From Enterococcus mundtii (GTDB lineage: Bacteria; Bacillota; Bacilli; Lactobacillales; Enterococcaceae): a stretch of DNA of 64,000 bases. The DNA is taken from contig NZ_AP019810.1 in the NCBI RefSeq assembly GCF_013394305.1, positions 992,001 to 1,056,000 of the forward strand. Reading direction: 5' to 3'. The notes under the pieces are model-generated. The model was not told where the DNA came from. It saw nothing but the letters and a program-made list of their open reading frames with translations, and did no database searches. Below are positions 10,870-45,471 of this stretch, one piece after another (the first letter of the stretch is position 1; every line of letters begins with the position of its first letter). Position numbers and translations under genes: made by a program.

Positions 10870-10880
10870 TTTTATCGTAT

Positions 10881-27049: not shown

Positions 27050-28201
27050 TCAAGCTACTTGTTTCGCATAACGCATCACATTTTGCTTGATGTTACTGAT
27101 TGTTGTCGGATCATGGATACCTGTGACTTCTTGGATCAACTGATCCATATTTTCTCGCACTTTCATCTCTTGCAGTTCACGACTTTGCTCATCTTCAGGA
27201 TCATAGTAGTTGAAAATGATCCCCATCGTAGCTGTCAAATGTGGACAAGTCAAATTGTATTCTTGCAATTCACGAACCGGACGAGTAAAGCGTTCTTGAT
27301 AGCCTAACTTCCGTAAAGGCGTTCGAGCTACCCGAGTGATGGCATCTGAGATATATTTATTTTGGAAACGTTGGATGATTTTCTCAATATAGGCTTCATG
27401 TTGTTTATTATCAAAGCCCCATTTTGCTTCCAGTAAACTTCCTGTTTCTTGTAGTACTGATTTTAGTTGGGCAACGACTAACGAATCTTGCATTGCCTCA
27501 TCGATCGTTGCATATCCCAATAATGCACCGGTGTAAGCTACAGTCGCATGCCCTGTGTTCACACTAAATAGTTTTCGTTCAATATATGGTTCCAAATCTT
27601 TGACGTATAGTACGCCATTTAACGAAATCTCTTTATTTTTTCGTTGCGTATCATCAATGACCCATTCTTTAAAAGGTTCCACTTGCACAAACAAAGGATC
27701 TTCATGTTGTTGCATCGGCACGATGCGATCCACTGCTGCATTCGGAAATCCGATGGACTGATCTGCAAAGTGGGTATCTGACAGATATTTATAGACTTCC
27801 ATTTTTAGATGCTCAGAGCCACCAATCATATTTTCACAAGCGATGATGTCTAGCGGTTGCTGATTGCCCTCTTGTTCTCTTTGCTCGATCCCTTTTGCAA
27901 TCAGTTCAGCAATGAATGGTAAAATATTGGGACCGATCGCTGTGGTCACAAGATCTGCTTGTGCTATTTCTTTGATCACTTGTTCAGGCTGTTTTTGGTT
28001 GTTCAATCCGCGAACGCGTTCAACGACAAGTTGTTTTTTCGATTCGTCAGCTAGTTCGATCGTATACCGGCTTTTTTCATTTAATGAATCGATGATCTGT
28101 TCGTTGACATCAACAAAAGTGATGTCAAACCCATTCTCAGCTAAAACTTCTCCAATAAATCCTCTGCCGATATTTCCGGCACCAAAGTGTACTGCTCTCA
28201 T
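27050..28201 (-). CDS. mtlD: mannitol-1-phosphate 5-dehydrogenase
   Basis: Oxidises mannitol-1-phosphate to fructose-6-phosphate with NAD. 383 residues from [15 protein letters not shown], where [12 protein letters not shown] is the N-terminal nucleotide-binding loop; [18 protein letters not shown] carries the conserved catalytic region in the C-terminal domain. Start at 28201 because AAGGAG lies 9 bases before it; the upstream TTG would contain that site. Last gene of mtlA-mtlF-mtlD, 13 bases after mtlF. It is the only mtlD in the window, so it must serve both mannitol transporters found here. Confidence 0.94.
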
Positions 28202-28214
28202 TCGTCTTCTCTCC

Positions 28215-28652
28215 TTAGGCAATTGCTAGATTGTGTGTGACTTCTTCTTTACTCAGTGCATCTGCTAATTGGACAACATTGTCCATGTCGCTACAATAAA
28301 GAGCGATTTGTTGCACTAATTGCAGATGTTCTTCTCCTACGCCAGCGATACCAAACAAGACTGTCGCAATCTTTTCTTCTTGTTCAGTCCCGAAATTGAC
28401 ACCATCTGGCACTTGGATCACACAGATCCCTGATTTTTTTACGAATGCTTTGGCTTCATCTGTTCCATGAGGGATCGCGATAAAATTCCCCATATAAACG
28501 GATAACATCGCATCACGTTCCACCATTGCGTCAATGTAGGGTTCTTCGACACAACCGGCTTCCACTAATTTTCTTCCACAGTATCGGATGGCCTCTTCCT
28601 TTGTTGCAAAAGCCTTATTCAACTCGATCATATCAAATGCTAATTCAGACAT
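28215..28652 (-). CDS. mtlF: mannitol-specific PTS IIA component
   Basis: Carries phosphate from HPr to the mannitol IIB domain. 145 residues of the fructose/mannitol IIA family. The phosphorylated His is in [13 protein letters not shown] (about residue 65), followed by the characteristic VPDGVNFG and [18 protein letters not shown] segments. Start has AAGGAGG. Lies between mtlA and mtlD. A second, clearly different IIA (mtlF2) is encoded at 42981. Confidence 0.92.
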
Positions 28653-28664
28653 TTTATTTCCTCC

Positions 28665-30437
28665 TTATGCTACTTTTTTCAAATAGTGAGCAATCGTTTC
28701 ATATTTTTGTGGACTGACCATCGTCGCCACTGAAAAATGAAGTGAATGCGGTGCCACTGAACGTGCCTCCTCAGACAAGGATTCTCTTGAAACGATCAGT
28801 GTATTCGGTTGCTCCGTCAACTCATCAATATTGATTTTTTTCAGAGGGATCTCCAATTGGTTTTTCTTCAATATATCTTTCAATAAGGACAATCCCATTG
28901 TCGCTGATCCTGCACGATCGTCATGAACAAGTAAAATCTCTTTGATATCTTTTAATTCAGATAAATCCAAATCATCTGTTGGAGTAGTAGAGAGTGGTTG
29001 GCTTGGCTGTGTTTCTTCCTTACTTCCTAATGCTTGGATGATTTCATCATACTTTGGTGAATTTAAGAAGTTTTCTACTGCAACAAAATGAGCATGTGGC
29101 GCTTTTTGTTTTGCTCGTTCCTGCAACTCAACTTGAGTCACGATCAATACGTCTGCTTCATCAGATAATTGACTAACGGCTTGATTCGTCACGAGTTGAG
29201 GTAAGTGATGCTCTTGGACTTTTTTTCTTAACAAGGAAGCACCCATCGCACTTGACCCCATTCCAGCATCACAGGCAAAAATGATTTTTTTGATCGCTGA
29301 TAAAGCTGGTTGTCCCTGACTAGTAGTTCCAGTTCCTTTCGCTTGTTGTTTCGCTTGACGAGTCGCTTCCACTGATTTTTCAAAATCTTCACTTGTTTCT
29401 TTCGCATCAGCTTTTAGAATGACTGCAGAGATCCCAAAAGAAACGGCTGTTGCAGCGACGATCCCTAAAATAACTGGTAAGTAAGCACTCAATGGTGCCA
29501 TTGCTAAAATGGCAATGATCGAACCCGGTGAAGCTGGCGCACGTAAGCCTGCATCCATTAATTGGAAAACGAAACTACCTGTCATCCCACCAAAAATCAC
29601 TGATAAGAATAATAACGGTTTCATCATTACGTATGGGAAATAGATTTCATGGATTCCACCTAAGAAATGGATGATCATTGCACCCGGTGCAGATGATTTT
29701 GCCGCGCCTTTGCCAAATAGTGTGAAAGCTAACAATACACCTAGACCTGGTCCAGGATTAGCTTCCAACAAGAACAGGATCGATTGACCGGCTGTAGCCA
29801 CTTGTTCTGTTCCTAAAGGAGTCAAAATGCCATGGTTGATCGCATTATTCAAAAACAAGATTTTCGCTGGTTCGATAAAAATACTCGTCAATGGAATCAA
29901 ATTTGCATTTAAAATTGCTTCAACACCTGTTGCCATCGCTTGCGTCAGTGTATCCACCACTGGACCAATTGCAGAAAAGCCGATCAATGCTAACGCAAAA
30001 CCGATTAATCCTGCAGAAAAATTGTTGACCAACATCTCAAACCCTGATTTGATATGTTTTTGAAACACTTGATCGAATTTCTTGATGGCAAAGCCACCTA
30101 ATGGACCCATGATCATGGCACCTAACATCATCGGAATATCTGTCCCAACGATCACACCCATCGTCGCAATTGCTCCGACGACTGAACCACGATCACCACC
30201 GATGACTTTCCCTCCGGTGTAGCCGATCAATAAAGGAATTAAATACGTCAACATTGGGCCGACCATCGTAGCAAACGCTTCGTTTGGTAAATAGCCATCT
30301 GGAATAAATAATGCTGTCAAAACACCCCAAGCAATCAACGCACCGATATTCGGCATCACCATACTAGATAAGGTACTTCCTAACTTTTGTACTTTTGCTT
30401 TGAATGAAATTTTATTTTTTGGTATCGTCTCTTCCAC
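28665..30437 (-). CDS. mtlA: mannitol-specific PTS IICB component (copy 1)
   Basis: Mannitol permease, 590 residues. The IIC membrane domain (to about residue 345) has the signature GGIHEIYFPYVMMKP and NHGILTPLG. A IIB domain follows with the phosphocysteine in IIFACDAGMGSSAMG. After about residue 495 a second IIB-like unit (EILLVHDDRAGSATMG) keeps the fold pattern but has no Cys at the active-site position. Start GTG at 30437 because AAAGGAG lies 8 bases before it. A cre-like site and an inverted repeat resembling MtlR sites precede it. The other mannitol IICB, at 45472, shows the same degenerate second unit. Confidence 0.9.
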   Translation of the reverse strand: MEETIPKNKISFKAKVQKLGSTLSSMVMPNIGALIAWGVLTALFIPDGYLPNEAFATMVGPMLTYLIPLLIGYTGGKVIGGDRGSVVGAIATMGVIVGTDIPMMLGAMIMGPLGGFAIKKFDQVFQKHIKSGFEMLVNNFSAGLIGFALALIGFSAIGPVVDTLTQAMATGVEAILNANLIPLTSIFIEPAKILFLNNAINHGILTPLGTEQVATAGQSILFLLEANPGPGLGVLLAFTLFGKGAAKSSAPGAMIIHFLGGIHEIYFPYVMMKPLLFLSVIFGGMTGSFVFQLMDAGLRAPASPGSIIAILAMAPLSAYLPVILGIVAATAVSFGISAVILKADAKETSEDFEKSVEATRQAKQQAKGTGTTSQGQPALSAIKKIIFACDAGMGSSAMGASLLRKKVQEHHLPQLVTNQAVSQLSDEADVLIVTQVELQERAKQKAPHAHFVAVENFLNSPKYDEIIQALGSKEETQPSQPLSTTPTDDLDLSELKDIKEILLVHDDRAGSATMGLSLLKDILKKNQLEIPLKKINIDELTEQPNTLIVSRESLSEEARSVAPHSLHFSVATMVSPQKYETIAHYLKKVA

Positions 30438-30472
30438 TTCAATCGCTCCTTTATCTCTTTCTTTAACCAAAT

Positions 30473-30486
30473 TGTATCCGCTTACC
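30473..30486 (-). promoter_or_regulatory. cre-like site upstream of mtlA copy 1
   Basis: Minus-strand GGTAAGCGGATACA matches TGWAANCGNTNWCA at 12 of 14 positions and sits 36 bases before the mtlA start, a typical place for CcpA repression of mannitol genes. Confidence 0.5.
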
Positions 30487-30505
30487 ATTTAGATAAATAG
30501 TCGGA

Positions 30506-30693: not shown

Positions 30694-31710
30694 TTATTCC
30701 ATTGACTCTCCTAATCGAGCCAACCGTTCTTCCCAAAGCATTAGATTTTCAGACATATCGGCTGACGCCTCATAGAACGTAATGAAATCTAAAATAATCG
30801 TTCCTTGCTCTATGTATGCCGCCATCACCGCTTTTAATTCTTCCGTTTGGATTTGTTCAAATGCTTCTTTCGCTTTGTTCATTTCTTTTTCTTTCAACCA
30901 ATCAAGACTTTTTTCAAAATAAAACTGATCCAGTGCTAACGTGATCTCCTGATGTTTCAAGTGGCGATTCAACACAACGGCTTCTTGTACTTGTTCCAGC
31001 TCCAAATAAGCAATCGCTAACTTGGTTTGGCGCTTTTCCGTCAATTGTTCCACGTGGGTCGCAATCACTTTTTTCCAATCGTTTTGATAAAAAGCCAGAT
31101 CAAAGGTGGCATTTCCTGTTGGCTTTTGCTCATTCAACTTCTCTACCCAAGAAAATTCCTGTTCTTCCACTAAGTGATCGATCAATTGCTGATACTGAGT
31201 GGGATATTCTTCCGCAGCTTCTTCATATGCGCCTGCTTCTACTAATGACTGCCATGAACTTTTCTGATTTTCTTCGGTTGTCGCTTGCTCATTATTCGTT
31301 CTTTGTTCAACAAACAAACCGACACCTTGAATCACAACAAAAACGATTACTCCACTAAGAAGTAATCGCTTGATGATTTTTTTCCAATTGATTTGTAACA
31401 ACTGATTTTTTTTCAGTGTGTTGCTTGAATGAGAGAACTGACTCTTCTCTTTTGTATTGGCTATTTCTTGCTCCCAGTGTTGACTTAAGATCTCTTCAAT
31501 CTCCTCTGTCAAAGGAAATTGAAGCACTTTTTCTATCATCATTTCTCCCTTACGATCATAAATACGTATGCGACATTGTCCTTGTGTGTTTGCCAGCAAG
31601 ACTCGTCGATTTTCAGTTTCTAAATCTTCCAAAGCCTGAAACAAATCCAACTGAGTCTCTTCTACTTGTAAGTGATGGATCTGATCGATGATTACAGTTT
31701 CTTTCGCCAT
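30694..31710 (-). CDS. bitopic membrane protein of T4SS cassette, unknown function
   Basis: 338 residues. A cytoplasmic N-terminal part of about 110 residues (beta-rich start, DLFQALEDLETENRRVLLANTQGQCRIRIYDRKG) is followed by one membrane helix at about 112-133 (IKRLLLSGVIVFVVIQGVGLFV) and about 200 extracellular residues of short amphipathic helices, TPR-like in appearance. The topology recalls EssB/YukC of type VII systems, but I cannot claim homology. Last gene of the secretion cassette, 60 bases after the VirB8-like gene, same strand. Probably a structural or assembly component. Confidence 0.55.
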   Translation of the reverse strand: MAKETVIIDQIHHLQVEETQLDLFQALEDLETENRRVLLANTQGQCRIRIYDRKGEMMIEKVLQFPLTEEIEEILSQHWEQEIANTKEKSQFSHSSNTLKKNQLLQINWKKIIKRLLLSGVIVFVVIQGVGLFVEQRTNNEQATTEENQKSSWQSLVEAGAYEEAAEEYPTQYQQLIDHLVEEQEFSWVEKLNEQKPTGNATFDLAFYQNDWKKVIATHVEQLTEKRQTKLAIAYLELEQVQEAVVLNRHLKHQEITLALDQFYFEKSLDWLKEKEMNKAKEAFEQIQTEELKAVMAAYIEQGTIILDFITFYEASADMSENLMLWEERLARLGESME

Positions 31711-31770
31711 ACGTTGTCACTCCCCTCATTCATTTTTGTTGCGTCCATTTGTAAGGTCTTCCTTACTCAA

Positions 31771-32298
31771 TCATTGTATTTCCATAAAAGAAGACAGCTG
31801 TTCGAGATCATCCAAGACATAGCGATGATTTTTAGTGTCATAGAGATAAGTCAGTTTGACACCCTCACGATGGCGAATATCTTTTTTTACAACTCCGCCT
31901 TCTTCATTCAATAAAGACGTCGTAAAATCAACCAAACAGAGGACTTCAACCATTTCCTCGTTCGTTTGTTTAAAATAATGCTCGCTTTTGAGCCAGCGAC
32001 TGAAGCCAAAACGCTGTGGACTATGCGTTTTTTTACCTTGTTCTGTTTTTACTTTATCTTTCATCTTGTTAGAAAGAGCATCAACATATGCAGAGTAATT
32101 GTCGCCGACTGTTTCAAACGTATAATAAGCTTGTAAAAATTCTCTGACTTGTGCTTCCGAAAGTTGTCTGGATTTTTTTTCAGAGGCTTGTCTTTTTTCT
32201 TGTGAACGAAAGACAAGTGACCTACCAACACTAAAAGTCATGCTACCAAACAGAAAGAAAGCTAGAATGAGACAAAGGAAGCGGGATTTTGCATTCAT
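31771..32298 (-). CDS. VirB8/TcpC-like single-span protein (tentative)
   Basis: 175 residues: a short cytoplasmic start, one membrane helix or uncleaved signal (FLCLILAFFLFGSMTFSVGRSLVF), then an extracellular domain starting LSEAQVREFLQAYYTFETVGDNYSAYVDALS, which has the look of the NTF2-like domain of VirB8/TcpC/PrgL proteins, and a beta-rich end. Its ATG overlaps the stop of the murein hydrolase gene by 4 bases. Position after VirB4- and VirB1-type genes is also where Tn916 carries its TcpC gene (orf13, after orf14). Homology is inferred from length, topology and context, not from a motif. Confidence 0.5.
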   Translation of the reverse strand: MNAKSRFLCLILAFFLFGSMTFSVGRSLVFRSQEKRQASEKKSRQLSEAQVREFLQAYYTFETVGDNYSAYVDALSNKMKDKVKTEQGKKTHSPQRFGFSRWLKSEHYFKQTNEEMVEVLCLVDFTTSLLNEEGGVVKKDIRHREGVKLTYLYDTKNHRYVLDDLEQLSSFMEIQ

Positions 32299-34220
32299 TT
32301 TTTTTCTCCCAACAATCGATAGAAATAAACAGGCGCCAGCTGGAAATCACCTGCATAGCCTTCAAATGGAGTGATGACGATATCGCCTTCTTGACCATAC
32401 CCTCGTGCAGTAGCAGGTGTGCAATGAAGGATCGTTTTACCACCATCATCTAAAAATAGCCCTGTATGGCCGTAACTACCTAAAGAGTGTCCTTTCTTCC
32501 CCCACACAAACAAGTCACCGGCTCTGACATCTTCTCGACTGATTGGCATCAGGAAAGTCCCTTCCAAAGAATACAATGTCTCAGTGCTACCTAGTGGCAC
32601 AGGCAAGCCAACACTTCTCATCGCCCACAGAACAAAAGAAGAGCAATCATGATAAGGAAAGGTGCCTCGTTCAAAGCCTTGTGAGTACTGAACGTTTTGA
32701 CGATACAATGTTCTGGCTTGTGTCAACACCTCTTGACCCACTGTGTGATTCGATTGCCAGAGTAAGCTCATCTCTTTACTGCCACCTAGTTGTACAAATA
32801 ATTCTTTGATCGTCGGTACCCAGTATTGGTTTAATCCCAGGGGATCATTACTTGCACCTACAGGACAATACACACTTCCGAGTTGCTCGACTGTCATCAG
32901 TCTTTGGTTCACGATCAATTGGTTTAGTGTTCGAGCGGTGGCGGCAATCCCTTCTTCAAGTGTGGCGTAGGAAAGCAACTCATTTTCTCGCATCAAGCCA
33001 CCTGGATTGTTCTTTTCTCGAATTCCTTCGCTCGTCCCCCAAGCAGTTTCGTGGATCATGATGGCTGCTAGAACAATGGGGGAGATATTATTCTTTTTAG
33101 CTTCTTGGATAATCGTTTCTGCATGGTCACTAAATGCGTGACAATGCAGTAAAATCACTTCTCGAAATTTCTGTCCATTAAATGTAACGTCCGTTTCAAT
33201 GGGATCAAGCTGTGTCTCATTGTTATCGACTACATTGGGGAGATAAAAAGCTGGATTGACGATTTCACCTTTTTTCTGGTAAGACAGATGCAGTTCCTCT
33301 TGTTTTACTTTCCCGATCTCTGTCCCCACCGATACCATCTGTCCTTCAGTAGCTGTTAGATCTACATCATGATAAGTAATGGTTTGATCGTTCATTGTGA
33401 TGGTTACGTTCTCTCGGTCTCTTGTAATTTCTCCAGCGATCACAGCGACTATGCTTTCTTTCGGTTCTGTCTGGATGAGCAGTCCTTCAAGTAAGCTTTT
33501 TTCTTGATTTGTTACGTAATAACCAAAGCGTTGTTTTATGCGTAAAGAGTCTGTTTCTTTCAATGGATTGCTTAATTCAGTCAAACTTGCATAAAGACCA
33601 ATTTCTGCTAACAGCTGTCTGCGTTCTTTCCACTCCGGCGTCCAAGTGATCACTTGCGACAATGATCGTGATGTTAATTTGATTTGACCTTCGTTACTGT
33701 CTACTTGCCACATCTGTTCATGCAATCCTTGGATCGTTTCTTTGAGAACATCTGGATTTCCTAATTGGTCTTCACCATAAGCCATGTCTAAATAAATCAG
33801 CACCTCTTCAATATCAGACCTGATCACGACTTCATTTGCAGCCACTACTCGTTCATTTACTAGAATCAAACTCTTAGTTGAGTTTAATTCTAGTGTCAAT
33901 TCCACATCCAATTCGGTTAAATATTTCCATACCTTCGTCAATTCAAGCTCATTGATTTTGATCGTGGCAGACGAAACGAAGCCGATCATACTGAAAAAGA
34001 GAAAAAATATGAGAATGCTAACACCAACAAGTAGGTAAAGGCTGACTTTGCTACTGATCGAAGTTTTATTTCCAAGTAAAGAGAAATCAACTATTTTTGT
34101 CTGATATGCAAGCATGACTCTGCGAGGATCTTTCGTTTTCCTACGCAGAAAATGTCTGTTACTCCTTCGTTTATTTCGTGATTTCACGGTCTCTTCAATG
34201 CCTACATCGTTTTTTTTCAT
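32295..34220 (-). CDS. multidomain peptidoglycan hydrolase of the T4SS (VirB1/CwlT-like)
   Basis: 641 residues. A basic cytoplasmic tail and one membrane helix (about 58-83) precede three wall-related modules. At about 230-330 there is what looks like a dead M23/LytM barrel (QRFGYYV, VAVIAGEIT, YHDVDLTATEGQMVSVGTEIG, then ELHLSY where HLHF would carry ligands, and GEIVNPAFYLP). At about 365-475 a glucosaminidase-type domain follows (LAAIMIHETAWGTSEGIREKNNP). At about 510-635 there is NlpC/P60 with Cys in HDCSSFVLWAM and His in GSYGHTGLFLDD. It should open the wall for the secretion channel. Start overlaps the VirB4 stop (ATGA). Confidence 0.8.
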   Translation of the reverse strand: MKKNDVGIEETVKSRNKRRSNRHFLRRKTKDPRRVMLAYQTKIVDFSLLGNKTSISSKVSLYLLVGVSILIFFLFFSMIGFVSSATIKINELELTKVWKYLTELDVELTLELNSTKSLILVNERVVAANEVVIRSDIEEVLIYLDMAYGEDQLGNPDVLKETIQGLHEQMWQVDSNEGQIKLTSRSLSQVITWTPEWKERRQLLAEIGLYASLTELSNPLKETDSLRIKQRFGYYVTNQEKSLLEGLLIQTEPKESIVAVIAGEITRDRENVTITMNDQTITYHDVDLTATEGQMVSVGTEIGKVKQEELHLSYQKKGEIVNPAFYLPNVVDNNETQLDPIETDVTFNGQKFREVILLHCHAFSDHAETIIQEAKKNNISPIVLAAIMIHETAWGTSEGIREKNNPGGLMRENELLSYATLEEGIAATARTLNQLIVNQRLMTVEQLGSVYCPVGASNDPLGLNQYWVPTIKELFVQLGGSKEMSLLWQSNHTVGQEVLTQARTLYRQNVQYSQGFERGTFPYHDCSSFVLWAMRSVGLPVPLGSTETLYSLEGTFLMPISREDVRAGDLFVWGKKGHSLGSYGHTGLFLDDGGKTILHCTPATARGYGQEGDIVITPFEGYAGDFQLAPVYFYRLLGEKK

Positions 34221-36667
34221 GGCGATACATCCTGTCGTAATCTGTGGCGTTCGACAGGATCAGTGGTGATCAACTCATAAAGTTTTGTTGTTGGATCAAC
34301 AGTGTTGGAAAAAGGGACAATGGCATTGCCTGCCCGTATCAATCCTGCGCCTTTGATTGGATTGAGTAATTGTCTTTGTTGCTGATACGAAAGATTGAAT
34401 AAGGAAGACAGCTCATCTAAATCACTTTTCGCTTGTTTCAACATAATGATAAATTCCGTATTACTTAACATTCGGCGTGCTTTATCTGATAATAATAAGG
34501 TTTCGACATTTTGGGTAATACCAGTGGCAATCGCACCCCATTTACGGATTCGGCTCCATAGTTCAAAAAAATAATTTTCACAGTAAGGATCATTTAACAG
34601 GAGTTGCATTTCATCAATATAGATCCAAGTAGTGATGCCTCTGTCTCGATTGCGAACGACCCGATTCCACACTTGTTCCAAAACAACCATCATCCCAAAA
34701 GTTTTCAATTGATTCCCTAGTTGTTTCGTATTGTAAATCACAAAACGTTTATTTAAAGAAACATTAGTTGGTTTAGAAAACATCGAAAGTGAACCATCGA
34801 TATATAACTCTAAGTCTAACGCCAATGTCTGCGCCTCTTTTTCCGGTTGTTCTTTTAAAAGCGGAAACCAATCTTCCGCCAATGTCGGCGCTGATTTTTC
34901 TGAGATTTTTTGAAAATTGAAATACGTCAATCGCGTGACACGATCAATGATCGATCGTTGTGCCGAATTTAACCCAGTTGGCCCACCGATCAAGGCTTCA
35001 CAAGCAGTTAACAGAAAGTCAGATTTCAATTTTACTGGATCTGCCTCTCCTCTCAAGTCTTCTGAAATATCTAGTAAGTTGATGAAGGTATTGGTATTAG
35101 GGGCGATATTGATGATTTGAGCATCAAAATCATTGCCGATGATCGTATCTTCATCTTCCGGATCAATCGAAATGACTTCATCTTCGGGATTTTTAAGTAA
35201 CGTCGTGATTTCTTCATATTTTTTGGCTACACCTTTGCCTGAACCAGAGCTACCTAAAATCATGCCACTCGGCGTGTTTAGTTGCTTACGATTGATCCTT
35301 ACACTATTTTTGGTCATTTCATTTTTCCCGTAATATTTGCCATCTATATGATTAAGATCTTGCGCTGAAAATGGAATAAAAATCGCTGTACTTTCTGTCG
35401 TCAACGTCCGTTGTTGTTCGATCCAATTTTTTCCTAAAGGTAAGACCGAATTGAATCCTTCATCTTGTAGATAGTCTAATGCATTGAAATGACAACGATT
35501 TTTACGCCCAACATGTTGGACTTGTTCCGCAATATCAGCAAGTTTTTCTTTGGTCTGAGATCGGAAATAAACGAGGAAGGTAACAAAATATAATTTTTGA
35601 CCGGTTTTGACTAGATCGTCTAATAAAGCTTCGGCTTCTTTGATACTATTGGTCAATTCATACGGAATATTTGAATAAGGATCATAGCCTTTTTGTGTCG
35701 CTTTTCTTTCAGCAGTTATTTTGTCCCCTTCCATATAAGCTTTTTTAATTTGAACCAACTGATTTGCTTTTTCAGAATCCACTGGTTCAATGTGGATCGA
35801 TAAACACAACTCTTCGCCAATATCCATTAATTCTAAGATCAATCTATCTGAAAGTTTGGTGGGGTAATCTTTCAAATATAGGACTTGGGCATACTCTGAG
35901 CCAATTTCGATATAGTCTTTTGCTTTAAAGCTGAAACTTGCAGGGGTAACAACTGCTTTTGTCGACAAACGGCTATAAACTAAATCTGTATAATTGAACT
36001 GGAACCATTCATTAGGTTTGATCAATTCATGGAGCAGTTGCAACCGTTCTTTGCCAGAAAGTGTTTGACTACTTGATTCGATTTCCGAAAGACTATGACT
36101 AAGTTGTTGTTCGATACGTGTCAAGGAATGCTTGGCTTGGTCATAATCAGTAGACTGCGTGCTGAAGGTCAATAGATTTTGTTTGCTAAAATTCGTTCCT
36201 CCTTCTGTCATGGTTCGCCGCAGCATTTCATTCAATTCTCGACGGTAGATGTCCTGACTCTCCCCTGTTTCTTTATAGAACAATTGCTTTTCCAGTTCCT
36301 TTTGTTCCATTCGCTTTTTTTTCAAGGTAATCGTTAGATGCGTTCGTTCATCACAACTATCTAGTAAGGTACAATACCCTTGAAAAATAGCTTGTTGGTC
36401 TTCTACAGGTGCAATTTGGTAATTGACATCTGAAAACTGGATACTTTTTGAATAATATCCGGAAGCAAGTTCACAAATTCCACTTTCGTACATTTTTTCA
36501 TAACGAATCTTCCTTTGTGCATGTTTGGCTGGTGCTGATTTTCGTTCTTTTTTTCCTCTTTTTTTCTTTTGCTTGTGTAATAGTTTGGTTAAGGAAGACT
36601 TTTTAATTCCCTTGTTCACTTCGATATTTCTCTGTTTTACTGTTTTTCCTCGTTGAAATCCCTTCAT
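34217..36667 (-). CDS. VirB4-like conjugation/secretion ATPase
   Basis: Energises assembly and transport in Gram-positive type IV secretion. 816 residues: an N-terminal basic region, a VirB4 N-terminal domain, then the RecA-like ATPase with Walker A GSSGSGKG at about 470 and Walker B WIYIDEMQLLL at about 680; GITQNVETLLLSDKARRML is the conserved downstream helicase-like segment. Start at 36667 follows GGAGG with 6-base spacing; the gene begins 65 bases inside the PrgI-like gene. No coupling protein of TcpA/VirD4 type accompanies it, so this is the only ATPase of the cassette. Confidence 0.88.
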   Translation of the reverse strand: MKGFQRGKTVKQRNIEVNKGIKKSSLTKLLHKQKKKRGKKERKSAPAKHAQRKIRYEKMYESGICELASGYYSKSIQFSDVNYQIAPVEDQQAIFQGYCTLLDSCDERTHLTITLKKKRMEQKELEKQLFYKETGESQDIYRRELNEMLRRTMTEGGTNFSKQNLLTFSTQSTDYDQAKHSLTRIEQQLSHSLSEIESSSQTLSGKERLQLLHELIKPNEWFQFNYTDLVYSRLSTKAVVTPASFSFKAKDYIEIGSEYAQVLYLKDYPTKLSDRLILELMDIGEELCLSIHIEPVDSEKANQLVQIKKAYMEGDKITAERKATQKGYDPYSNIPYELTNSIKEAEALLDDLVKTGQKLYFVTFLVYFRSQTKEKLADIAEQVQHVGRKNRCHFNALDYLQDEGFNSVLPLGKNWIEQQRTLTTESTAIFIPFSAQDLNHIDGKYYGKNEMTKNSVRINRKQLNTPSGMILGSSGSGKGVAKKYEEITTLLKNPEDEVISIDPEDEDTIIGNDFDAQIINIAPNTNTFINLLDISEDLRGEADPVKLKSDFLLTACEALIGGPTGLNSAQRSIIDRVTRLTYFNFQKISEKSAPTLAEDWFPLLKEQPEKEAQTLALDLELYIDGSLSMFSKPTNVSLNKRFVIYNTKQLGNQLKTFGMMVVLEQVWNRVVRNRDRGITTWIYIDEMQLLLNDPYCENYFFELWSRIRKWGAIATGITQNVETLLLSDKARRMLSNTEFIIMLKQAKSDLDELSSLFNLSYQQQRQLLNPIKGAGLIRAGNAIVPFSNTVDPTTKLYELITTDPVERHRLRQDVSP

Positions 36668-36986
36668 GATCTTCCTCCAAACGAGCATTTTGATATGGAT
36701 AGTGCTTTGTTGCGATAAGATGGCGCCAACGGATAAGGAGATATTTTTCTAAAGGTAACTGATTTTTTTTGATCCAACCCACCGATAAAATCGGACTAGT
36801 AAAAAACATCAATACAATTCCTAGATCATCAATTGAATAGCCCCAAATAAAATGATTAAGTAGGCCGACCGGTAAAATCACGATTAAAGCCAATGCAATA
36901 ACGATAACCTGTCTTAAAGAGAAGCCAAAAAAGATCTTCTCTTGATACTCTTTGATTTCTTTTCTGATCACGACTTCAATCGCCAT
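36603..36986 (-). CDS. PrgI/VirB3-like membrane protein
   Basis: 127 residues of the PrgI family, the Gram-positive counterpart of VirB3. Two close membrane helices (about 24-45 and 50-67: VIVIALALIVILPVGLLNHFIW, then DLGIVLMFFTSPILSVGWI) follow the characteristic start EVVIRKEIKEYQEKIFFGFSLRQ, and the C-terminal part is basic and cytoplasmic (YLLIRWRHLIATKHYPY). Its 3' end overlaps the VirB4 gene by 65 bases in another frame. VirB3 and VirB4 work together and are sometimes fused, so tight overlap is meaningful. Confidence 0.82.
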   Translation of the reverse strand: MAIEVVIRKEIKEYQEKIFFGFSLRQVIVIALALIVILPVGLLNHFIWGYSIDDLGIVLMFFTSPILSVGWIKKNQLPLEKYLLIRWRHLIATKHYPYQNARLEEDHEGISTRKNSKTEKYRSEQGN

Positions 36987-37007
36987 TTTTCACACTCCTT
37001 TTCCCAC

Positions 37008-37841
37008 TCAGGCCGCAACGATGATCGCTTTCGACCATTTCATGGTGTAAAACAAACACATGGATAGCGCCAAGCAATTACCGACGATCGCACTGATCAC
37101 TGCAATCATCCCCTGCGTCTCATCAAATGAAAAAATAGTACTCACTAGTAGTGGATAGATATTCAACACGATAAAAAGCAATACACCTTGTAAAGATGCC
37201 GCACCAAATAGTTTTAAAAAATTCTTTCCGACATGCCCGATTTCTGTATTCACTAAAGCGACAATCGGTAAAGGTGAGATACTCAAATAAAGATACATTT
37301 CCAAAAAGCGTAAAAAGATCAGCACTTGAGCAAGGACGCTAACAATGATCGATAGAATCAAGGGAACGAGTAAGATCATCAACAACACCATTTTTTCAAA
37401 AAAACCTAGCTGATCGATCTGCTCCATCACGTTGAAGATATCCATTGTCTGATCCGTCACACCTCGAATCTCCAATTGATTGATTCCTTGACTAACAAAA
37501 ATACCTACATCCATAATGGCATTGAGGAAAACCATCAAGTGGCGTAAAAGCAGTACGGTCAATCCGATTTTGATAAACAATGGCAAAAAAAGATCCAGTC
37601 CACCAAACTCTGACTGCTTGCCATATAGTCGATGTGCGAGTTGTTGAAATTCGATCAACAATAGAAAACCTAATAGGGAATAAGCAATAGGTTTGACGAC
37701 ACTTTCCATGATCGTCACACTGTAACGATAGATTTCCGGCAGATAATGTTCGAGGTTTTGTAAAAGACTATTTTTATGATTCGTCGATAAACTTAATTGT
37801 TCTGCAATCGTTTGTAGCAAAAATTCGATCGCACCGTCCAT
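37008..37841 (-). CDS. VirB6/TrbL-like polytopic membrane protein of T4SS
   Basis: 277 residues with about six to seven membrane helices and an extracellular N-terminal amphipathic part (MDGAIEFLLQTIAEQLSLST). Segments such as VLLLRHLMVFLNAIMDVGIFVSQGI and ISPLPIVALVNTEIGHVGKNFLKLFGAASLQGVLLF resemble the VirB6/TrbL family (CD1107-type in clostridial conjugative transposons). It would form the membrane channel. Start at 37841 is set by GAGGAG 9 bases upstream. 13 bases after the VirB2-like gene. Confidence 0.72.
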   Translation of the reverse strand: MDGAIEFLLQTIAEQLSLSTNHKNSLLQNLEHYLPEIYRYSVTIMESVVKPIAYSLLGFLLLIEFQQLAHRLYGKQSEFGGLDLFLPLFIKIGLTVLLLRHLMVFLNAIMDVGIFVSQGINQLEIRGVTDQTMDIFNVMEQIDQLGFFEKMVLLMILLVPLILSIIVSVLAQVLIFLRFLEMYLYLSISPLPIVALVNTEIGHVGKNFLKLFGAASLQGVLLFIVLNIYPLLVSTIFSFDETQGMIAVISAIVGNCLALSMCLFYTMKWSKAIIVAA

Positions 37842-37854
37842 TCTTTTTCGCTCC

Positions 37855-38058
37855 TCACATTGAAATATTCGTGATCCACGCACCAGCAGCTAAAATCACT
37901 GCACCCCCAACGATTTGAAAAATGGCATGTTGCATCCCTGGCCCATTATGCTCTTTGATTGCAACGCCTAATTGGATAATGCCCCAAACGGTCAGTAAGC
38001 TTCCTGCAGTAATCACCCCGTTGGAAAATAAAGACATTGCTTGATTGAAATAATCCAT
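37855..38058 (-). CDS. VirB2/Maff2-like small membrane protein (pilin-like)
   Basis: 67 residues, mostly two hydrophobic helices (SNGVITAGSLLTVWGIIQLG and AIFQIVGGAVILAAGAWI) separated by a short polar loop HNGPGMQHA. Size, topology and the GG motif fit the Maff2/TrbC-VirB2-type subunits found immediately before VirB6-type genes in Gram-positive conjugative elements. Strong AAGGAG-type site. It may build an extracellular or intramembrane conduit; no signal peptidase site is obvious. Confidence 0.68.
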   Translation of the reverse strand: MDYFNQAMSLFSNGVITAGSLLTVWGIIQLGVAIKEHNGPGMQHAIFQIVGGAVILAAGAWITNISM

Positions 38059-38068
38059 TTATTTCTCC

Positions 38069-39709
38069 TTATTCGCTCAATTTCTCTGGCATTTCTGGAT
38101 TGTTGTCTTGAATAATGACATGAAAAGATACTGTCGTTTCTGTAAATGTATCTTTGACCGTCAAATAAACAGGATAGCTTCCAGGTGTATCCCAAGCGAT
38201 TTCTTCTATGATCTCAACATCTTCTATTCCAATACTCTCTTCACGATCCGAAACGGAGATCCCTGCTAATAAATCTGGCTTTTCTTCGCCTACAATGATT
38301 CTCTTATCCTCTATCCCAGAAAATACAGGTGGTTCATTGATTACTTGGATGCTCCCAAAGGTTTTGGTGATCTCTCCATGTGTATCTTGGACTTGAAGAG
38401 GAAAACGATAGGTATTTAATCGGGAAGTGTCGATTTTCTCCCAAAAAGGCAGAGCGATTGCCACATGTAATTGCTCAACCGGATCTTCACGATCTGCAAG
38501 AACTAGTTTTGCTAGATAGCTTTCTTTATTCAGTTCACTGAATACAGGAAGAGTCATATGCGTATTTGTAATCGTCGGCGCTTCATTTGTTAAGTGAACA
38601 CGGATCGTACGCTCTGCCGCTCTTTTGCCATACCGATCAACGACATTTCCAATTCTTACGAAGTAGTTTCCTGGTACATATGGGACAAGATCGGATGCCA
38701 AGATATTGTCTGAAGTAAGGTTGATCGCACCATCTTCTTGATCATTTGCGGAGAAATAATCAAATAAAGAGAATGATTGATCAACAGGTAAAACGAGCTG
38801 GTTCGGCCCCGCGATTATTGGTGCTTCATTGGTGATCCTCATATTACTTATCAGCTTGGTACTTGCTCCAAATTGATCAGTCACAGAATAAATCACTTCA
38901 TAACTGCCTTCTTGTTCTGTTTGGAGTGTGGTTTGTACTTGAACTTCTGAGGTCAATTCACCATCTTCTTCATCATGAGCAGAAATGCCCGCTAATAAGT
39001 CAATACTTGAACCAATCGTGATGTGGTGACTTTGTCTTACTTGCTGAATGATCGGAGAGTGATTAAACAGAAAGGTGACTGTCGCAACACTCACTTTCCC
39101 TTTTGAATCAATTGCTGTGATCTGCATCACTTGGTAGCCAGATTCATTAGGATCGACGGGCGTATAATGGATCACTGGAACGGGATCACTTCCTTGAACA
39201 ACAGTAAAATAGGTAAAGGGATCAATTGCTGTTCCTCTTGGTAAGATCTGCAATGGAGCATTTGCATGGACGTAAGGACCTTGCCAATGATTATCGCTCT
39301 CTGGAATTGCTGAAATATTGGATAGAGTACCTTTTTGTTCGTTTTCTTCGAAGCGATTTGTGAGATTGCTTCTTGATTCTGTATTTTCCCGATTTTGAGA
39401 GACTGTTGTGGCTTCAAGGTAAGCGATTCTCAGCTGATTGGTTTCATCCTTGATCATTGCTTCCGTGGGAAGATCCAGTGGTTTTCTAAATTGAGAAGCA
39501 AACTCAAACAAATGAGAAGAATTGTTTTCTTTTTTGAAATAGCTCTCCTCTGGTGTCTCCACGCTGATTGCCTGTTTCATTTTGCTTGAAGTAGGGCCAG
39601 CTGTTGATGGATCTTCTGTTTGTTGTGTTTTACAGCCGCTGACGAACAAAACAACTGAACAACTGAATATGAACAAGCCAAATCTCATGTATTTTTTCCT
39701 TTTAGTCAT
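38069..39709 (-). CDS. surface lipoprotein with repeated Ig-like (DUF5011-type) domains
   Basis: 546 residues: signal peptide with lipobox VSGC (Cys about 26), a Ser/Thr/Glu-rich spacer, then four or more repeats of about 80-90 residues, each starting near 'I..G....LLAGISAHDEEDG' and ending in 'YEVIYSVTDQFGASTK'-like strands. These are immunoglobulin-like modules of the kind found in Gram-positive surface proteins. It overlaps the adhesin gene by 8 bases. Anchored on the outer membrane face, it may scaffold the secretion channel through the wall, or bind a partner surface. Both roles are inference. Confidence 0.7.
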   Translation of the reverse strand: MTKRKKYMRFGLFIFSCSVVLFVSGCKTQQTEDPSTAGPTSSKMKQAISVETPEESYFKKENNSSHLFEFASQFRKPLDLPTEAMIKDETNQLRIAYLEATTVSQNRENTESRSNLTNRFEENEQKGTLSNISAIPESDNHWQGPYVHANAPLQILPRGTAIDPFTYFTVVQGSDPVPVIHYTPVDPNESGYQVMQITAIDSKGKVSVATVTFLFNHSPIIQQVRQSHHITIGSSIDLLAGISAHDEEDGELTSEVQVQTTLQTEQEGSYEVIYSVTDQFGASTKLISNMRITNEAPIIAGPNQLVLPVDQSFSLFDYFSANDQEDGAINLTSDNILASDLVPYVPGNYFVRIGNVVDRYGKRAAERTIRVHLTNEAPTITNTHMTLPVFSELNKESYLAKLVLADREDPVEQLHVAIALPFWEKIDTSRLNTYRFPLQVQDTHGEITKTFGSIQVINEPPVFSGIEDKRIIVGEEKPDLLAGISVSDREESIGIEDVEIIEEIAWDTPGSYPVYLTVKDTFTETTVSFHVIIQDNNPEMPEKLSE

Positions 39710-42700
39710 TCAAACCACCCTTTTTTTGTTGATAGATCAAAAGACCACTCACTCCTAGAAATAAAATACCTAGCCCTACTAGAGAAACAGAAGTACGACT
39801 ATTTGTTTTAGGTAAATCACGAGTATTTTCCTGCTTTTTCGTTTCTTCTTTTTCCCCTTCTTTTGGTGTATTGAAATGAACAGTCTGTTCTTGATTCGTC
39901 AAATCATCTTCACGTGCTACCTCATTTTCTTGCTCAGACTCGTAGTATAAAATGTGAGTGGCAGTCAACTGCTCCTTGTCTTTTAGCGTATTGGCTTTCA
40001 GCTCAAGAAAAACTTCAAATTGATCTTCTTTACTCTTTGCTGTGTAGGTTGAGATTGCTTCGTTGATGAGTTCTCCGGTGTCACCTTTTCGGTACTGGGT
40101 CACTACGGTATACACATGACCGACTTCAATGGCTGCTCCTTTGATCCAGACTACGTCTTTCAATTGATTGTCTTTGGTTGGATCAAGCTCCTTACTTCCG
40201 TCGATTGCTGTGAACAAACTCGTCAATGCTAATTTTTCGCGTTCGTTATAGGCTTCTAATACGATCAACTCACCATCTTTTTCAATAGTTACTGAAAAAT
40301 CTAAAGGTTCTTCTAAAGGTAAATACCCTTCCAATGGTTTTCCTTCAATAAATTGATAGGTCCCATAGGGCAAATCGCTTACTTCGATTTTTCCCTCATC
40401 ATCCGTGAGATATTCTTCAATAAATTGAAGGATATCCCCGCCATTTTCTGCTTTTTCTACCTGATATAAACCAAATGGTACTTGCACCAAAGGTTGTTCA
40501 TTCAAGCGATCTCGTTTGATCAATTCAATGGATTGTCTTGCTAAACGGTTAGGGACTTCTAAGCGAATCAATGCACTATGATTTTCTGCTGTTACACTGA
40601 AAATCAATGGTTCTTCTAACGGGAGATAGCCTTCTGGCGCTTTGACTTCATGAAGCTCATAGCGATCCACGCCCCAAGGTAAGCTCTCTGTTGTCACTAA
40701 TTCCCCTTTTTGATTCGTTTCAAAAATCTCAGTTTTTTCTGTATCATTCGGACGTGTCATTGCTACAAATGCCCCTTGTCCATCATTCGCCCAAGTATCA
40801 AAAATCTTGAATTGTGCGCCAGCATAGGGAATTTGTTGTCCTGTTTCTTGATCGATCTTGATGAGATGTACGCGTGATTCGATGATTTCATCTTCTAATA
40901 AAAAGAAATGTGTGTAGCCTTCCTCACTGATCGTCACTTCAAATGGTTCAATGATCAAATAGCCATCCGTTCCTTTAGTTTCAGCGATCGTATACGTGTC
41001 ATAGGGTAAATCGATAAATTTAAAGTAGCCGTTTTTTTCAGTGACTTGGACATATTCTTTTCCTGTGGTATGAGCGGTGGCTGTTAGTTCGATTCCTTCG
41101 AGTGGTGGTTTATGATTCGTTTGATTGGATGTTAATGCGTGTAAAATTTCGAAGATAGAAGTGGGGATAAGAGGTTTTGAACCAAATTTATATCCTTCGA
41201 CATGTCCCTTGATGACGCGATCAGTGACTGTTTTGCTATGAACAGCCACCGTTTCATTTTGTCCTGCGTAAGTCAAATGTATAGGATAGATGGTCGGATC
41301 TAAGTTATATCCTTTCGGTGGAATGGTCTCTTGTAAATAATAGGTTCCTAGTTTTAACCCTTTTAGCTCAGCTGATGCACTTCCATTAACCTCTTCCATC
41401 GTCAATTCCGCCACTGTTTCTCCGTCTTTGTCCGTTAATTTATAGACAGCTCCGATCAATTGGGCACCTCCTTGAGGCTGATTGCCTGTTTCTGCATCTT
41501 CTTTGATGACCTTCAAATTAGCTGTCTGTTCTTGATTAGCTAATGTGATACTCGTCAATTCATTCACTTTGACAGTGACAGTCTGGGGCGTTGGATTTAA
41601 AACGTAGCCTTCTGGCGCTTTGATTTCTTGAATCGTAACGACCGTATCAACGAGTAGATCATGCCAAATAGCAACACCATCAGAATCTGTCGTCAATTCT
41701 TTTATCTGTCCATCCGCAGTCGTGAAACAAAAAACGGCGCCTACTAATGGTTGTTTTGTTTGTTGATCGACTTTGCGGATACCTGCATGTCCATATTTTT
41801 GCACGCGTAACTGAAAGGAGGTTCTTGTCAGCTGTGGCACTCTACCGACTACCATGTTTTGTGTATAAGGATGTTGGTACACGACGATTGCTCCTTGATA
41901 ACTACTGGGGATATGATAATCAAATGCGATTTCACTTGTCGCCGGTGCTTCTTTCGATGCAGTGACTGTTACTTGATTACCTTGCTTTTCAATGGTTACT
42001 CCATTGATTTGTTGAACAGGCGATGAGCTATAATTTGAAAATGCTCCTGTTGTGTCGGTCAATATTTGGCTTTCGCCGGCTTTTATATCCAATATTTGTC
42101 CATCAAAACTCGGTTGGGTATAGAACCGTTCCACTTGTTCCATCACTGTTCGTTTGAATGTTTGGTAATCGTTCATTGTCAAAACACCAGTAATACTGGT
42201 GGGGGTGATTCCTTGTTGCTCCCAAGCAAGGAGTTGCGTCATCAATTCTTTTTCCATCGTGTAGTTTGTCGCAATCACCCCATAGTATTTAATCAAAGAA
42301 ATTTTCTTCAATAATTCTGTGTTTTGAATACTTGAAGTATACCCGCTATTTTCTCCAATATTCAGCGCTACTCCTTGTTCCAGACAAAGCGCAATCTCTC
42401 CCTTCACTCGCTTGCCGTACCAACCAATTTCTCTGCCACCATTAGATAGATGGATATCGATATGAGGGATATGGATCGCTGGATCAACAACGACACTTTC
42501 ATTTGCAAATGGATCAGCCAATCTTGGAGAATATTCATGGATCGCCGCTTCAATATAATTCGTCGAACCAATAGTAATCAATTTCCCAGTGGCCCTTTGG
42601 ACTAATTGATAGTTTTTTTTGAAATTTGTCCAGCTATTATCCTGTGGGATTGATTGTTCAGCTGTACGTAAAGTTTGATTGGGATCAGATGCAGTGATTT

Positions 42701-42824
42701 GTTGATACATGGGTAGGTCAGGCAATGTTTCTGCCGAGACTGGTCTCACTTTCATTTGAAAAAAAATAGTGATTAAAATAATGATTGGTAGAATCAAAAA
42801 TAGTGATTCAGAGGATTTCTTCAT
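39702..42824 (-). CDS. LPXTG surface adhesin with thioester and Cna-B/SpaA domains
   Basis: 1040 residues from MKKSSESLF (AAAGGAG upstream). Signal peptide, then a thioester domain: Cys in ALCLEQG (about 147) and the TQ of TQLLAWEQQG (about 197) are the crosslinking pair of the TQXA class. At least four SpaA/Cna-B repeats follow (for example KAPEGYVLNPTPQTV, IPPKGYNLDPT, KAPEGYLPLEEP, KPLEGYLPLEEP). Next comes a terminal VaFE-like domain (SLFTAIDGSKELDP through LTNQEQTVHF) that may carry a Thr-Gln ester bond. The protein ends in LPKTN, a membrane helix and a charged tail for sortase. First gene of the secretion cassette; it could covalently grip a target cell or host surface. Confidence 0.85.
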   Translation of the reverse strand: MKKSSESLFLILPIIILITIFFQMKVRPVSAETLPDLPMYQQITASDPNQTLRTAEQSIPQDNSWTNFKKNYQLVQRATGKLITIGSTNYIEAAIHEYSPRLADPFANESVVVDPAIHIPHIDIHLSNGGREIGWYGKRVKGEIALCLEQGVALNIGENSGYTSSIQNTELLKKISLIKYYGVIATNYTMEKELMTQLLAWEQQGITPTSITGVLTMNDYQTFKRTVMEQVERFYTQPSFDGQILDIKAGESQILTDTTGAFSNYSSSPVQQINGVTIEKQGNQVTVTASKEAPATSEIAFDYHIPSSYQGAIVVYQHPYTQNMVVGRVPQLTRTSFQLRVQKYGHAGIRKVDQQTKQPLVGAVFCFTTADGQIKELTTDSDGVAIWHDLLVDTVVTIQEIKAPEGYVLNPTPQTVTVKVNELTSITLANQEQTANLKVIKEDAETGNQPQGGAQLIGAVYKLTDKDGETVAELTMEEVNGSASAELKGLKLGTYYLQETIPPKGYNLDPTIYPIHLTYAGQNETVAVHSKTVTDRVIKGHVEGYKFGSKPLIPTSIFEILHALTSNQTNHKPPLEGIELTATAHTTGKEYVQVTEKNGYFKFIDLPYDTYTIAETKGTDGYLIIEPFEVTISEEGYTHFFLLEDEIIESRVHLIKIDQETGQQIPYAGAQFKIFDTWANDGQGAFVAMTRPNDTEKTEIFETNQKGELVTTESLPWGVDRYELHEVKAPEGYLPLEEPLIFSVTAENHSALIRLEVPNRLARQSIELIKRDRLNEQPLVQVPFGLYQVEKAENGGDILQFIEEYLTDDEGKIEVSDLPYGTYQFIEGKPLEGYLPLEEPLDFSVTIEKDGELIVLEAYNEREKLALTSLFTAIDGSKELDPTKDNQLKDVVWIKGAAIEVGHVYTVVTQYRKGDTGELINEAISTYTAKSKEDQFEVFLELKANTLKDKEQLTATHILYYESEQENEVAREDDLTNQEQTVHFNTPKEGEKEETKKQENTRDLPKTNSRTSVSLVGLGILFLGVSGLLIYQQKKGGLND

Positions 42825-42935: not shown

Positions 42936-42968
42936 AAAAAAAAACGACCAATCAATTGATTGGTCGTT
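42936..42968 (-). terminator. terminator of the mtlA2-mtlR-mtlF2 operon
   Basis: AACGACCAATCA / TGATTGGTCGTT stem with a minimal loop, followed on the minus strand by nine T. It stands 13 bases after the mtlF2 stop and isolates the mannitol genes from the secretion cassette, which must then have its own promoter in 42858-42935. That gap also holds an AAGGAGG (42885-42891 complement) that has no start codon at a usable distance. Confidence 0.8.
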
Positions 42969-42980
42969 GCGTATTTTACG

Positions 42981-43427
42981 TCAAAACTCCTCAGCTTGTT
43001 TTAAGATTTGTTGGATTTCCTCTACTGTTTGAGCATCGCTCAATGCCATCACTTGATCGACATCGGAACAAAAAAAGGCGAGTTCTTGTAAACTTGTTAG
43101 TTGTTGGTTTTCTCGCATGATCACTGCAAATAAAATCGTTGCGATTTTCTTTTCTTCGTCGATACCAAAGTCAACGCCATCAGGTACTTGGAACAAAAAA
43201 ATACCTTCTTCAACAATCTGTTCATCTTTTGCTTTTCCATGAGGAAGTGCCACAAAGTTGCCGATATAGACACTTGCTGCTTCTTGGCGAGCAACCATCG
43301 CATCGGTATATTCCTTTTGGATCACTCTTTTTTCAAGAAGTTGTTCACCAATCTGCTGAATGGCTTCTTTCCAGCTACCAAACTGTTGGTTCAACCAAAT
43401 ATGTTCAGATGGAATCTCAAGCATCAA
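42981..43427 (-). CDS. mannitol-type PTS IIA component (copy 2)
   Basis: 148 residues of the fructose/mannitol IIA family, active His in NFVALPHGKAK. VPDGVDFGIDEEKKIATILFAV matches the mtlF signature. Sequence differs considerably from mtlF copy 1 (many substitutions throughout), so this is an old paralogue, not a recent duplication. Third gene of mtlA2-mtlR-mtlF2; no mtlD follows, the operon ends in a terminator and the secretion cassette begins. Substrate may be mannitol or a related hexitol. Confidence 0.88.
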   Translation of the reverse strand: MMLEIPSEHIWLNQQFGSWKEAIQQIGEQLLEKRVIQKEYTDAMVARQEAASVYIGNFVALPHGKAKDEQIVEEGIFLFQVPDGVDFGIDEEKKIATILFAVIMRENQQLTSLQELAFFCSDVDQVMALSDAQTVEEIQQILKQAEEF

Positions 43428-43439
43428 TAGAGCCCCCCT

Positions 43440-45470: not shown

Positions 45471-45471
45471 C

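Follow-up and report, generated by a model that had tools for sequence, protein, structure and literature searches.

What does a conjugation-type channel do once it has been parted from the machinery that moves DNA? This question is raised by a nine-gene cassette encoded on the minus strand of the Enterococcus mundtii chromosome, which runs from position 42824 down to 30694 of a 64,000-nucleotide stretch (the window; positions 992,001 to 1,056,000 of contig NZ_AP019810.1, assembly GCF_013394305.1). An earlier note, based upon the letters of this DNA, described the cassette as a wall-crossing type IV secretion system (T4SS) channel set without its own DNA-processing parts, and put it forward as a candidate for an undescribed system. 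The first of these descriptions was upheld, with adhesin, wall hydrolase, channel and motor found to be encoded together; as to the second, the cassette is better regarded as a variant of a known conjugation operon that has become immobilised. The explanation favoured here, to which a probability of about one half is attached, is that the cassette represents a vertically inherited, plasmid-derived channel that is unable to move its own DNA and that is kept for some other purpose in certain lineages while decaying in others.

Composition of the cassette

All nine reading frames are present and co-directional, as had been noted previously, with spacing that varies from an 86-base overlap between the PrgI and VirB4 genes to a 60-base gap ahead of the last gene. 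Family assignments were made using Pfam, NCBIfam and sequence and profile searches of solved structures, supplemented in the case of the VirB8-like protein by predicted fold. The VirB4 ATPase (34217..36688; 823 amino acids) was assigned to the CD1110 family (NCBIfam NF045971) with a score of 990.6 bits against a cut-off of 325, and an alignment of 24 sequences revealed that both the P-loop and the Walker B motif (IDEMQ) are present. The P-loop ends in GSGKG, the residue that follows the P-loop lysine usually being serine or threonine as opposed to the glycine found here. The idea that this motif denotes loss of ATPase activity was rejected, since it is not specific to the cassette: GSGKG occurs in all nine window-type proteins and also in relatives from genomes G056 and G010, the relevant contig of the latter (C10) bearing its own VirD4 and relaxase genes.

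Several channel components could be assigned with similar approaches. The VirB3 protein (36603..36986; 127 amino acids) matches the Pfam PrgI family (PF12666) above cut-off, with an E-value of 3.2e-16. The small VirB2-like membrane protein (37855..38058; 67 amino acids) resembles Maff2 (PF12750) with an E-value of 4.1e-5, which falls under the curated cut-off, and shares 41-43% identity with its positional counterparts in the two sister T4SS loci described below. No family model matched the polytopic VirB6-like protein (37008..37841; 277 amino acids from the ATG at 37841, or 291 from a GTG at 37883), which shares 31-33% identity with the protein encoded between the VirB2- and PrgI-like genes on three plasmids. 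The VirB8-like protein (31771..32298; 175 amino acids) gave a profile match to PrgL (7aed; E 3.7e-7), and its predicted fold matches the same structure by Foldseek (E 9.5e-5). The VirB1-like wall hydrolase (32295..34220; 641 amino acids) gave a profile match to PrgK (8s0u; E 2.7e-9) and comprises LytM-like, glucosaminidase and NlpC/P60-Amidase_5 domains (Amidase_5, E 8.1e-18; Glucosaminidase, E 1.1e-8; M23, E 0.0016, the last being under cut-off). The cassette is predicted from these matches to encode a FATA-type (monoderm) T4SS channel, with VirB4, VirB3/PrgI, VirB6-, VirB8- and VirB1-like parts all present.

The channel genes are preceded by two genes for surface proteins. The start of the adhesin gene (39702..42824; 1040 amino acids) was corrected to the ATG at 42824, because an AAAGGAG sequence precedes that codon. 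The encoded LPXTG-anchored protein has SpaA/Cna_B-type and TQ ester-bond domains (five SpaA stretches and one TQ domain in Pfam), and its anchor is recognised by TIGR01167 at a score barely above cut-off. A profile match to SaTIE-TED (6fx6; E 9.6e-21) identified a thioester domain (TED), within which Cys147 and Gln197, presumably the residues that form the thioester, are invariant in all four aligned orthologues. Given the TED fold and the Cys-Gln pair, the protein is assigned by prediction to the thioester-domain adhesins. The adjacent gene (38069..39709) encodes a 546-amino-acid lipoprotein with bacterial Ig-like repeats (PF16403; E 1.6e-14) and, judged from its sequence, a lipobox-like VSGC motif near the N-terminus.

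The last gene (30694..31710) encodes a bitopic protein of 338 amino acids, with a small N-terminal alpha/beta domain, a single membrane helix and a TPR-like C-terminal domain. Searches against solved structures revealed no sequence relative (best E 0.87), and the predicted model, in which the outer part is TPR-like, is weak (mean pLDDT 62). This protein had been listed as unknown; homologues of it are encoded in plasmid transfer operons. It matches 57 plasmid records, mostly from Enterococcus (25) and Lacticaseibacillus (23). In pEfmO_03, as in an E. avium plasmid, the homologous gene lies downstream of VirB4; in EFD32pB it is upstream of VirD4. Comparison of orthologues with hhalign returned probabilities of 99.9 (D32), 99.6 (O_03), 99.2 (avium), 98.4 (G056), 97.4 (plasmid C2 of the window genome) and 96.1 (G029), together with an unsupported value of 2.2 for G010.

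Absence of DNA-processing functions

No relaxase, VirD4 or integrase was found among the nine cassette genes with Pfam or NCBIfam. Across the genome, the PF03432 relaxase family has a single match, on plasmid C4, and PF02486 has one chromosomal match approximately 0.7 Mb from the cassette and another on plasmid C3. The noted lack of VirD4 was likewise confirmed for the cassette; PF12696 (VirD4) matches occur elsewhere in the genome, in other operons, at both sister T4SS loci and also on one plasmid. The absence of bounding direct repeats and of a flanking tRNA, also noted previously, was upheld. Of the three repeat families found to either side of the cassette, two reflect the paralogous mtlA genes and the third is a match of 22 bases (86%) between mtlD and mtlR, within the genes. 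The sole tRNA of the window is at 10880. With no relaxase, VirD4 (type IV coupling protein), integrase or end repeats at the locus, the cassette does not qualify as a conjugative element.

Evidence for a plasmid origin of the cassette

The nearest named relatives of the cassette are the transfer operons of pEfmO_03 (NZ_MT261365; E. faecium) and the E. avium plasmid NZ_CP034168. In both, the gene order is adhesin, sortase, glucosaminidase, PcfB, VirD4, VirB2-like, VirB6-like, PrgI and VirB4, followed by the hydrolase, a gene in the VirB8 position, small genes, the bitopic homologue, ArdC, MobC and relaxase. The SpaA/VaFE adhesin, the VirB2- and VirB6-like proteins, PrgI and the CD1110-family VirB4 are common to the cassette and both plasmids, in the same relative order, as are a wall hydrolase, a VirB8-position protein and a bitopic TPR-type protein. 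The sortase, PcfB, VirD4 (CD1115), ArdC, MobC and relaxase of the plasmids are absent from the cassette, which lacks the DNA-processing end of the plasmid set and has, in addition, an Ig-like lipoprotein gene after the adhesin gene. Identity between the VirB4 proteins is only 44%. PLSDB types pEfmO_03 as non-mobilizable and NZ_CP034168 as mobilizable, the description of their operons as conjugative being a reading from the genes that they carry.

A further link to plasmids is evident in genomes G005, G009 (E. ratti) and G002, where two small leader genes lie upstream of the adhesin gene. Homologues of these, 42-52% identical, and in one case over only approximately 52-65 residues, are located upstream of the adhesin gene on plasmid C2 of the window genome; the C2 adhesin and the window adhesin share 55% identity (L097:1190-8252, G000:C2). 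Since operon order is shared with plasmids, and since the leader genes match those of plasmid C2, the derivation of the cassette from a plasmid transfer operon is well supported. Four loci from genomes of the same order, with VirB4 proteins 41-43% identical to that of the cassette, all have VirD4 beside the channel genes, and in one of them the stretches examined also included a recognisable relaxase gene.

Two other readings were considered and rejected. A viral origin is at odds with a single scan of viral contigs with VirB4, which revealed no relative, and with the lack of PHROGs matches for the five cassette proteins scanned. A role in anti-phage defence was dismissed after analysis of six cassette proteins with PADLOC yielded only one match, between VirB4 and mad8 (E 1.2e-7).

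Distribution, inheritance and selection

The occurrence of the cassette was examined in 16 Enterococcus genomes (counted as one genome per species), including the window genome, G000. Window-type VirB4 (67-100% identity) was found in nine of these. Outside the genus, the best identity was 46% in the family, for which the search covered 106 genomes in total, and 44% in the order (396 genomes), and all 815 plasmid records that match VirB4 do so at less than 60%, the best listed being approximately 44%. The cassette adjoins gatD in every carrier, with or without mannitol (mtl) genes in between, such that the comparison called for in the earlier note revealed a cassette without mobility genes at the same chromosomal place in nine of 16 genomes.

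Phylogenetic analysis of VirB4, which came with a long-branch warning for the more distant sequences, placed the nine window-type proteins in one clade with 100/100 support. This clade splits into a group comprising four mundtii-type genomes and G015 (Enterococcus sp. 10A9_DIV0425), and a second in which G002 is sister to G005 plus the pair of G014 (E. villorum) and G009. The VirB4 tree of a sister locus has the same order for the seven genomes common to both trees, and a MurT-GatD tree agrees where it is resolved, leaving G002 open. With a common place in the chromosome and a VirB4 tree that is species-like where resolved, the cassette is vertically inherited and fixed in the chromosome.

Selection was assessed from the ratio of nonsynonymous to synonymous substitution rates (dN/dS), calculated with NG86 between the window genome and G012 (E. 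mundtii Pe161). Values for the motor and channel genes were 0.117 (VirB2), 0.042 (VirB6), 0.092 (VirB3) and 0.098 (VirB4), those for the flanking genes being 0.059 (murT), 0.039 (gatD), 0.087 (mtlD) and 0.070 (mtlA1). Synonymous divergence (dS) is similar inside and outside the cassette (0.073-0.175 and 0.075-0.093, respectively), whereas between more distant species it is at or near saturation, so that dN/dS is only rough there. Purifying selection, about which the earlier note had asked, thus acts on the motor and channel genes, with ratios of 0.04-0.12 for these four genes in this comparison; selection on the outer parts is weaker. Since VirD4 and relaxase are missing at the locus in all nine carriers, their loss most simply predates the split between them, the motor having been constrained since.

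A working model for the channel

A mechanism consistent with these observations can be proposed. A plasmid transfer operon of enterococci would have left its mating-pair-formation half fixed in the chromosome of a common ancestor of part of the Enterococcus group, without VirD4, relaxase or the accessory DNA-processing genes. The thioester adhesin would tie the cell to a neighbour or a surface, and the PrgK-like enzyme would open the wall locally. The VirB8/PrgL-, VirB6-, VirB3- and VirB2-like proteins, together with the bitopic TPR protein, would form the channel, with VirB4 as its motor. In intact lineages the result would most likely be a contact-dependent channel that serves the cell, either fed by the VirD4 protein of a sister chromosomal locus or acting without a coupling protein.

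Such loci do exist. The window genome has two further chromosomal CD1110-type T4SS loci. Both include VirD4 and a Mga-like gene, and no PF03432 relaxase was found at either. Both hold their own channel sets, with VirB4 proteins 44-45% identical to that of the cassette. The first, designated locus 2 (G000:C1 about 1.529-1.545 Mb; L035:9473-20000, L036:1-4914), encodes VirD4, the Mga-like regulator and a large, fast-diverging protein, and its VirB4 type is present in 10 of the 16 genus genomes, all nine cassette carriers included. The third T4SS locus (G000:C1 about 3.013-3.032 Mb; L038:777-19779) encodes VirD4, a 1508-amino-acid unknown protein and a surface protein with MucBP repeats, and its VirB4 type is found in four of the 16. 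Sister-locus VirD4 occurs in all nine cassette genomes, and provides the sole PF12696 match in G005, G014 and G015. Over the 451 residues compared, the locus 2 VirD4 proteins of genomes beyond the mundtii group share 88-94% identity with the window genome's copy. The large protein encoded beside it ranges from 810 to 1525 amino acids, with aligned 100-column blocks only 18-34% identical in eight genomes; it has no Pfam match above cut-off, and the copy in the window genome has no PHROGs or PADLOC match. By virtue of its position and divergence only, this protein is a candidate substrate.

Decay among carriers and alternative explanations

A number of observations weigh against a channel that is kept for a purpose. 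Five of the nine carriers have at least one broken gene, most often the adhesin gene. In G007, a short stretch duplicated in tandem immediately behind the signal peptide shifts the adhesin frame (L133 about 2540-2740), and VirB6 is broken in G014. The adhesin gene is broken in G005 also, where in addition the frame changes near the N-terminus of VirB4, and there is a VirB8 protein that is approximately 13 residues short. In G002 the adhesin, the lipoprotein and the C-terminus of VirB1 are broken and the Walker B glutamate is changed to lysine, and in G009 VirB8 and most of the bitopic gene are broken. The decay speaks against a strictly required machine. In draft genomes, sequencing error may play a part. 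The outer parts are also less constrained, with NG86 ratios versus G012 of 0.213 for the adhesin, 0.370 for the lipoprotein, 0.330 for VirB1, 0.314 for VirB8 and 0.329 for the bitopic protein. YN00 gives higher values still for outer parts in the same comparison (0.54 for VirB1 and 0.75 for the bitopic protein), and the pairing of the window genome with G008 (E. mundtii CVM N55263) gives 0.21 for VirB3 and 0.57 for VirB8. Additionally, the co-occurrence of the cassette with sister VirD4 may reflect common ancestry only.

Broken genes would be expected of a degenerating relic, trapped in the chromosome when its parent element lost the DNA-processing genes and, now functionless, disappearing from one lineage after another, and an operon without VirD4 or relaxase, in one case with an altered Walker B motif, fits that description. 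Such an explanation is nonetheless considered somewhat unlikely. The loss of VirD4 and relaxase most simply predates the split of the carriers, yet the VirB2, VirB6, VirB3 and VirB4 genes retain the low ratios reported above, and all nine frames remain open in three of the nine carriers (the window genome, G012 and G015). Decay in most strains, which the earlier note had named as evidence against its proposal, was observed in part, with five carriers having a broken gene, three being intact and one, G008, incomplete (adhesin and lipoprotein past the contig end, VirB6 nine residues short). At the opposite extreme, the cassette could be a dedicated, chromosomally inherited and non-conjugative Gram-positive T4SS, a contact-dependent envelope channel with a thioester adhesin that takes its VirD4 from the relaxase-less sister T4SS, the neighbouring fast-diverging protein of which could be its substrate; this more specific proposal is tentative and, on balance, unlikely.

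The channel might alternatively act in trans as a helper for co-resident plasmids that have a relaxase and no channel of their own. Plasmid C4 (56.6 kb) is suggestive in this respect, since its relaxase (L098:4776-6278) is 92% identical to that of the T4SS-bearing plasmid C2 of G012, and a tblastn search of its whole length with reference T4SS proteins detected the relaxase only. However, C4 would still require VirD4, the benefit to the host is doubtful, and no PF03432 match at E 0.001 was found in G005, G008, G009, G014 or G015. Moreover, the VirB4-like gene of the G012 plasmid, 37-38% identical to that of the window, reads in two frames, which weakens the case for a helper function, regarded here as improbable. 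Least credible by far is that the cassette is one half of an intact but split mobile element. The two other chromosomal CD1110-type loci with VirD4, and the plasmids, could in principle supply the missing half, but the split element is disfavoured because each of the other loci has its own channel set; furthermore, the cassette occupies the same place in nine genomes, has no bounding repeats, and the sole PF03432 relaxase is on plasmid C4. A vertically inherited channel, kept in some lineages and decaying in others, remains the preferred explanation.

Two side observations concern the surface-protein genes. The adhesin gene, the most often broken, is disrupted in three of the seven genomes in which it can be read through (most of it lies past the contig end in G014), and could be subject to phase variation. 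Separately, two mundtii-type genomes, G012 among them, have a TnpB-like insertion that separates the lipoprotein gene from the VirB2-like gene (L039:13331-15180; L040:15073-16287).

Genomic neighbourhood

In the window, the cassette lies between mtlA1-mtlF1-mtlD (27050..30488, minus strand) and mtlA2-mtlR-mtlF2 (42981..47172, minus strand), a mannitol phosphotransferase setting that had been included in the original description. While mtl genes are indeed present on both sides in the window, the association is incidental. The mtlA1-mtlF1-mtlD genes are absent between gatD and the cassette in four of the nine carriers (G014, G005, G009 and G002), and mtlA2-mtlR-mtlF2 is not beside the cassette in G005, G009 or G002, which have no mtl genes on either side and where rbsU is found on the far side instead. 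In G012, G007 and G015, as in the window genome, the far side is occupied by mtlF2-mtlR. The contigs of G014 and G008 end there, and G014 has no mtl gene on its sole visible side. Conversely, the non-carriers G004, G006 and G010 have both mtl groups, between which lies a short group of ABC-transporter-like genes, and in G001, G003, G011 and G013 gatD leads on to the genes downstream, a single small frame intervening in G003. Because carriers exist without mtl flanks, and the mtl pair exists without the cassette, the mannitol genes lie outside the system.

A hairpin resembling an intrinsic terminator (42943..42968, minus strand; an 11-pair stem and T tail, by consensus match only) is located between mtlF2 and the adhesin gene, which suggests that the cassette may be transcribed separately as opposed to being simply an extension of the mannitol operon. 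An Rfam scan of positions 26900-47400 revealed no RNA family at gathering score.

Comparison with known systems and implications

The cassette shares with pCF10 a PrgI family protein and PrgK- and PrgL-like proteins, but differs in having no relaxase or VirD4, and in having a thioester adhesin in place of the PrgB polymer-adhesin type (as described in PMC12857230). A thioester-domain adhesin is reported to serve conjugation in B. subtilis (PMC8092201). The bitopic protein recalls TraF of pIP501 and EssB/YukC, which likewise are bitopic with a TPR-like outer domain (PMC13037476), although its N-terminal domain, at approximately 90 amino acids, is shorter than a pseudokinase. TraF is presented in that source as an essential transfer protein, likened to EssB/YukC, for which no homologue was found in other T4SSs. 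For the cassette protein the likeness would be one of analogy, as no Foldseek match was significant (an EssB fragment, 2ynq, reached only E 0.74) and there was no sequence match.

Channels that lack conjugative partners have been described elsewhere. Relaxase-less T4SSs of Patescibacteria, proposed to be co-opted, have a FATA-type channel as in the cassette (PMC12102498), but belong to another phylum, and the Se T4SS has a VirB2-like pilin array and a VirD4-like component (as outlined in PMC12857230). According to the latter, a 2025 review, T4SSs without VirD4 are known in Gram-negative bacteria, known Gram-positive T4SS functions are nearly all one-way DNA transfer, and dedicated Gram-positive effector translocators are a long-standing question, the Streptococcus suis 89K island being the first reported case. 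Gram-negative conjugative T4SSs are reported to be able to antagonise neighbours independently of cargo (PMC11045733). No description of the nine-gene cassette was recognised among the literature matches listed.

For the enterococci that carry the cassette, which include E. mundtii Pe161, it follows that VirB4 alone should not be taken as a sign of a conjugative element. Because in several species the channel has persisted after the loss of its relaxase and coupling protein, it would, moreover, offer a tractable place in which to ask what such channels do.

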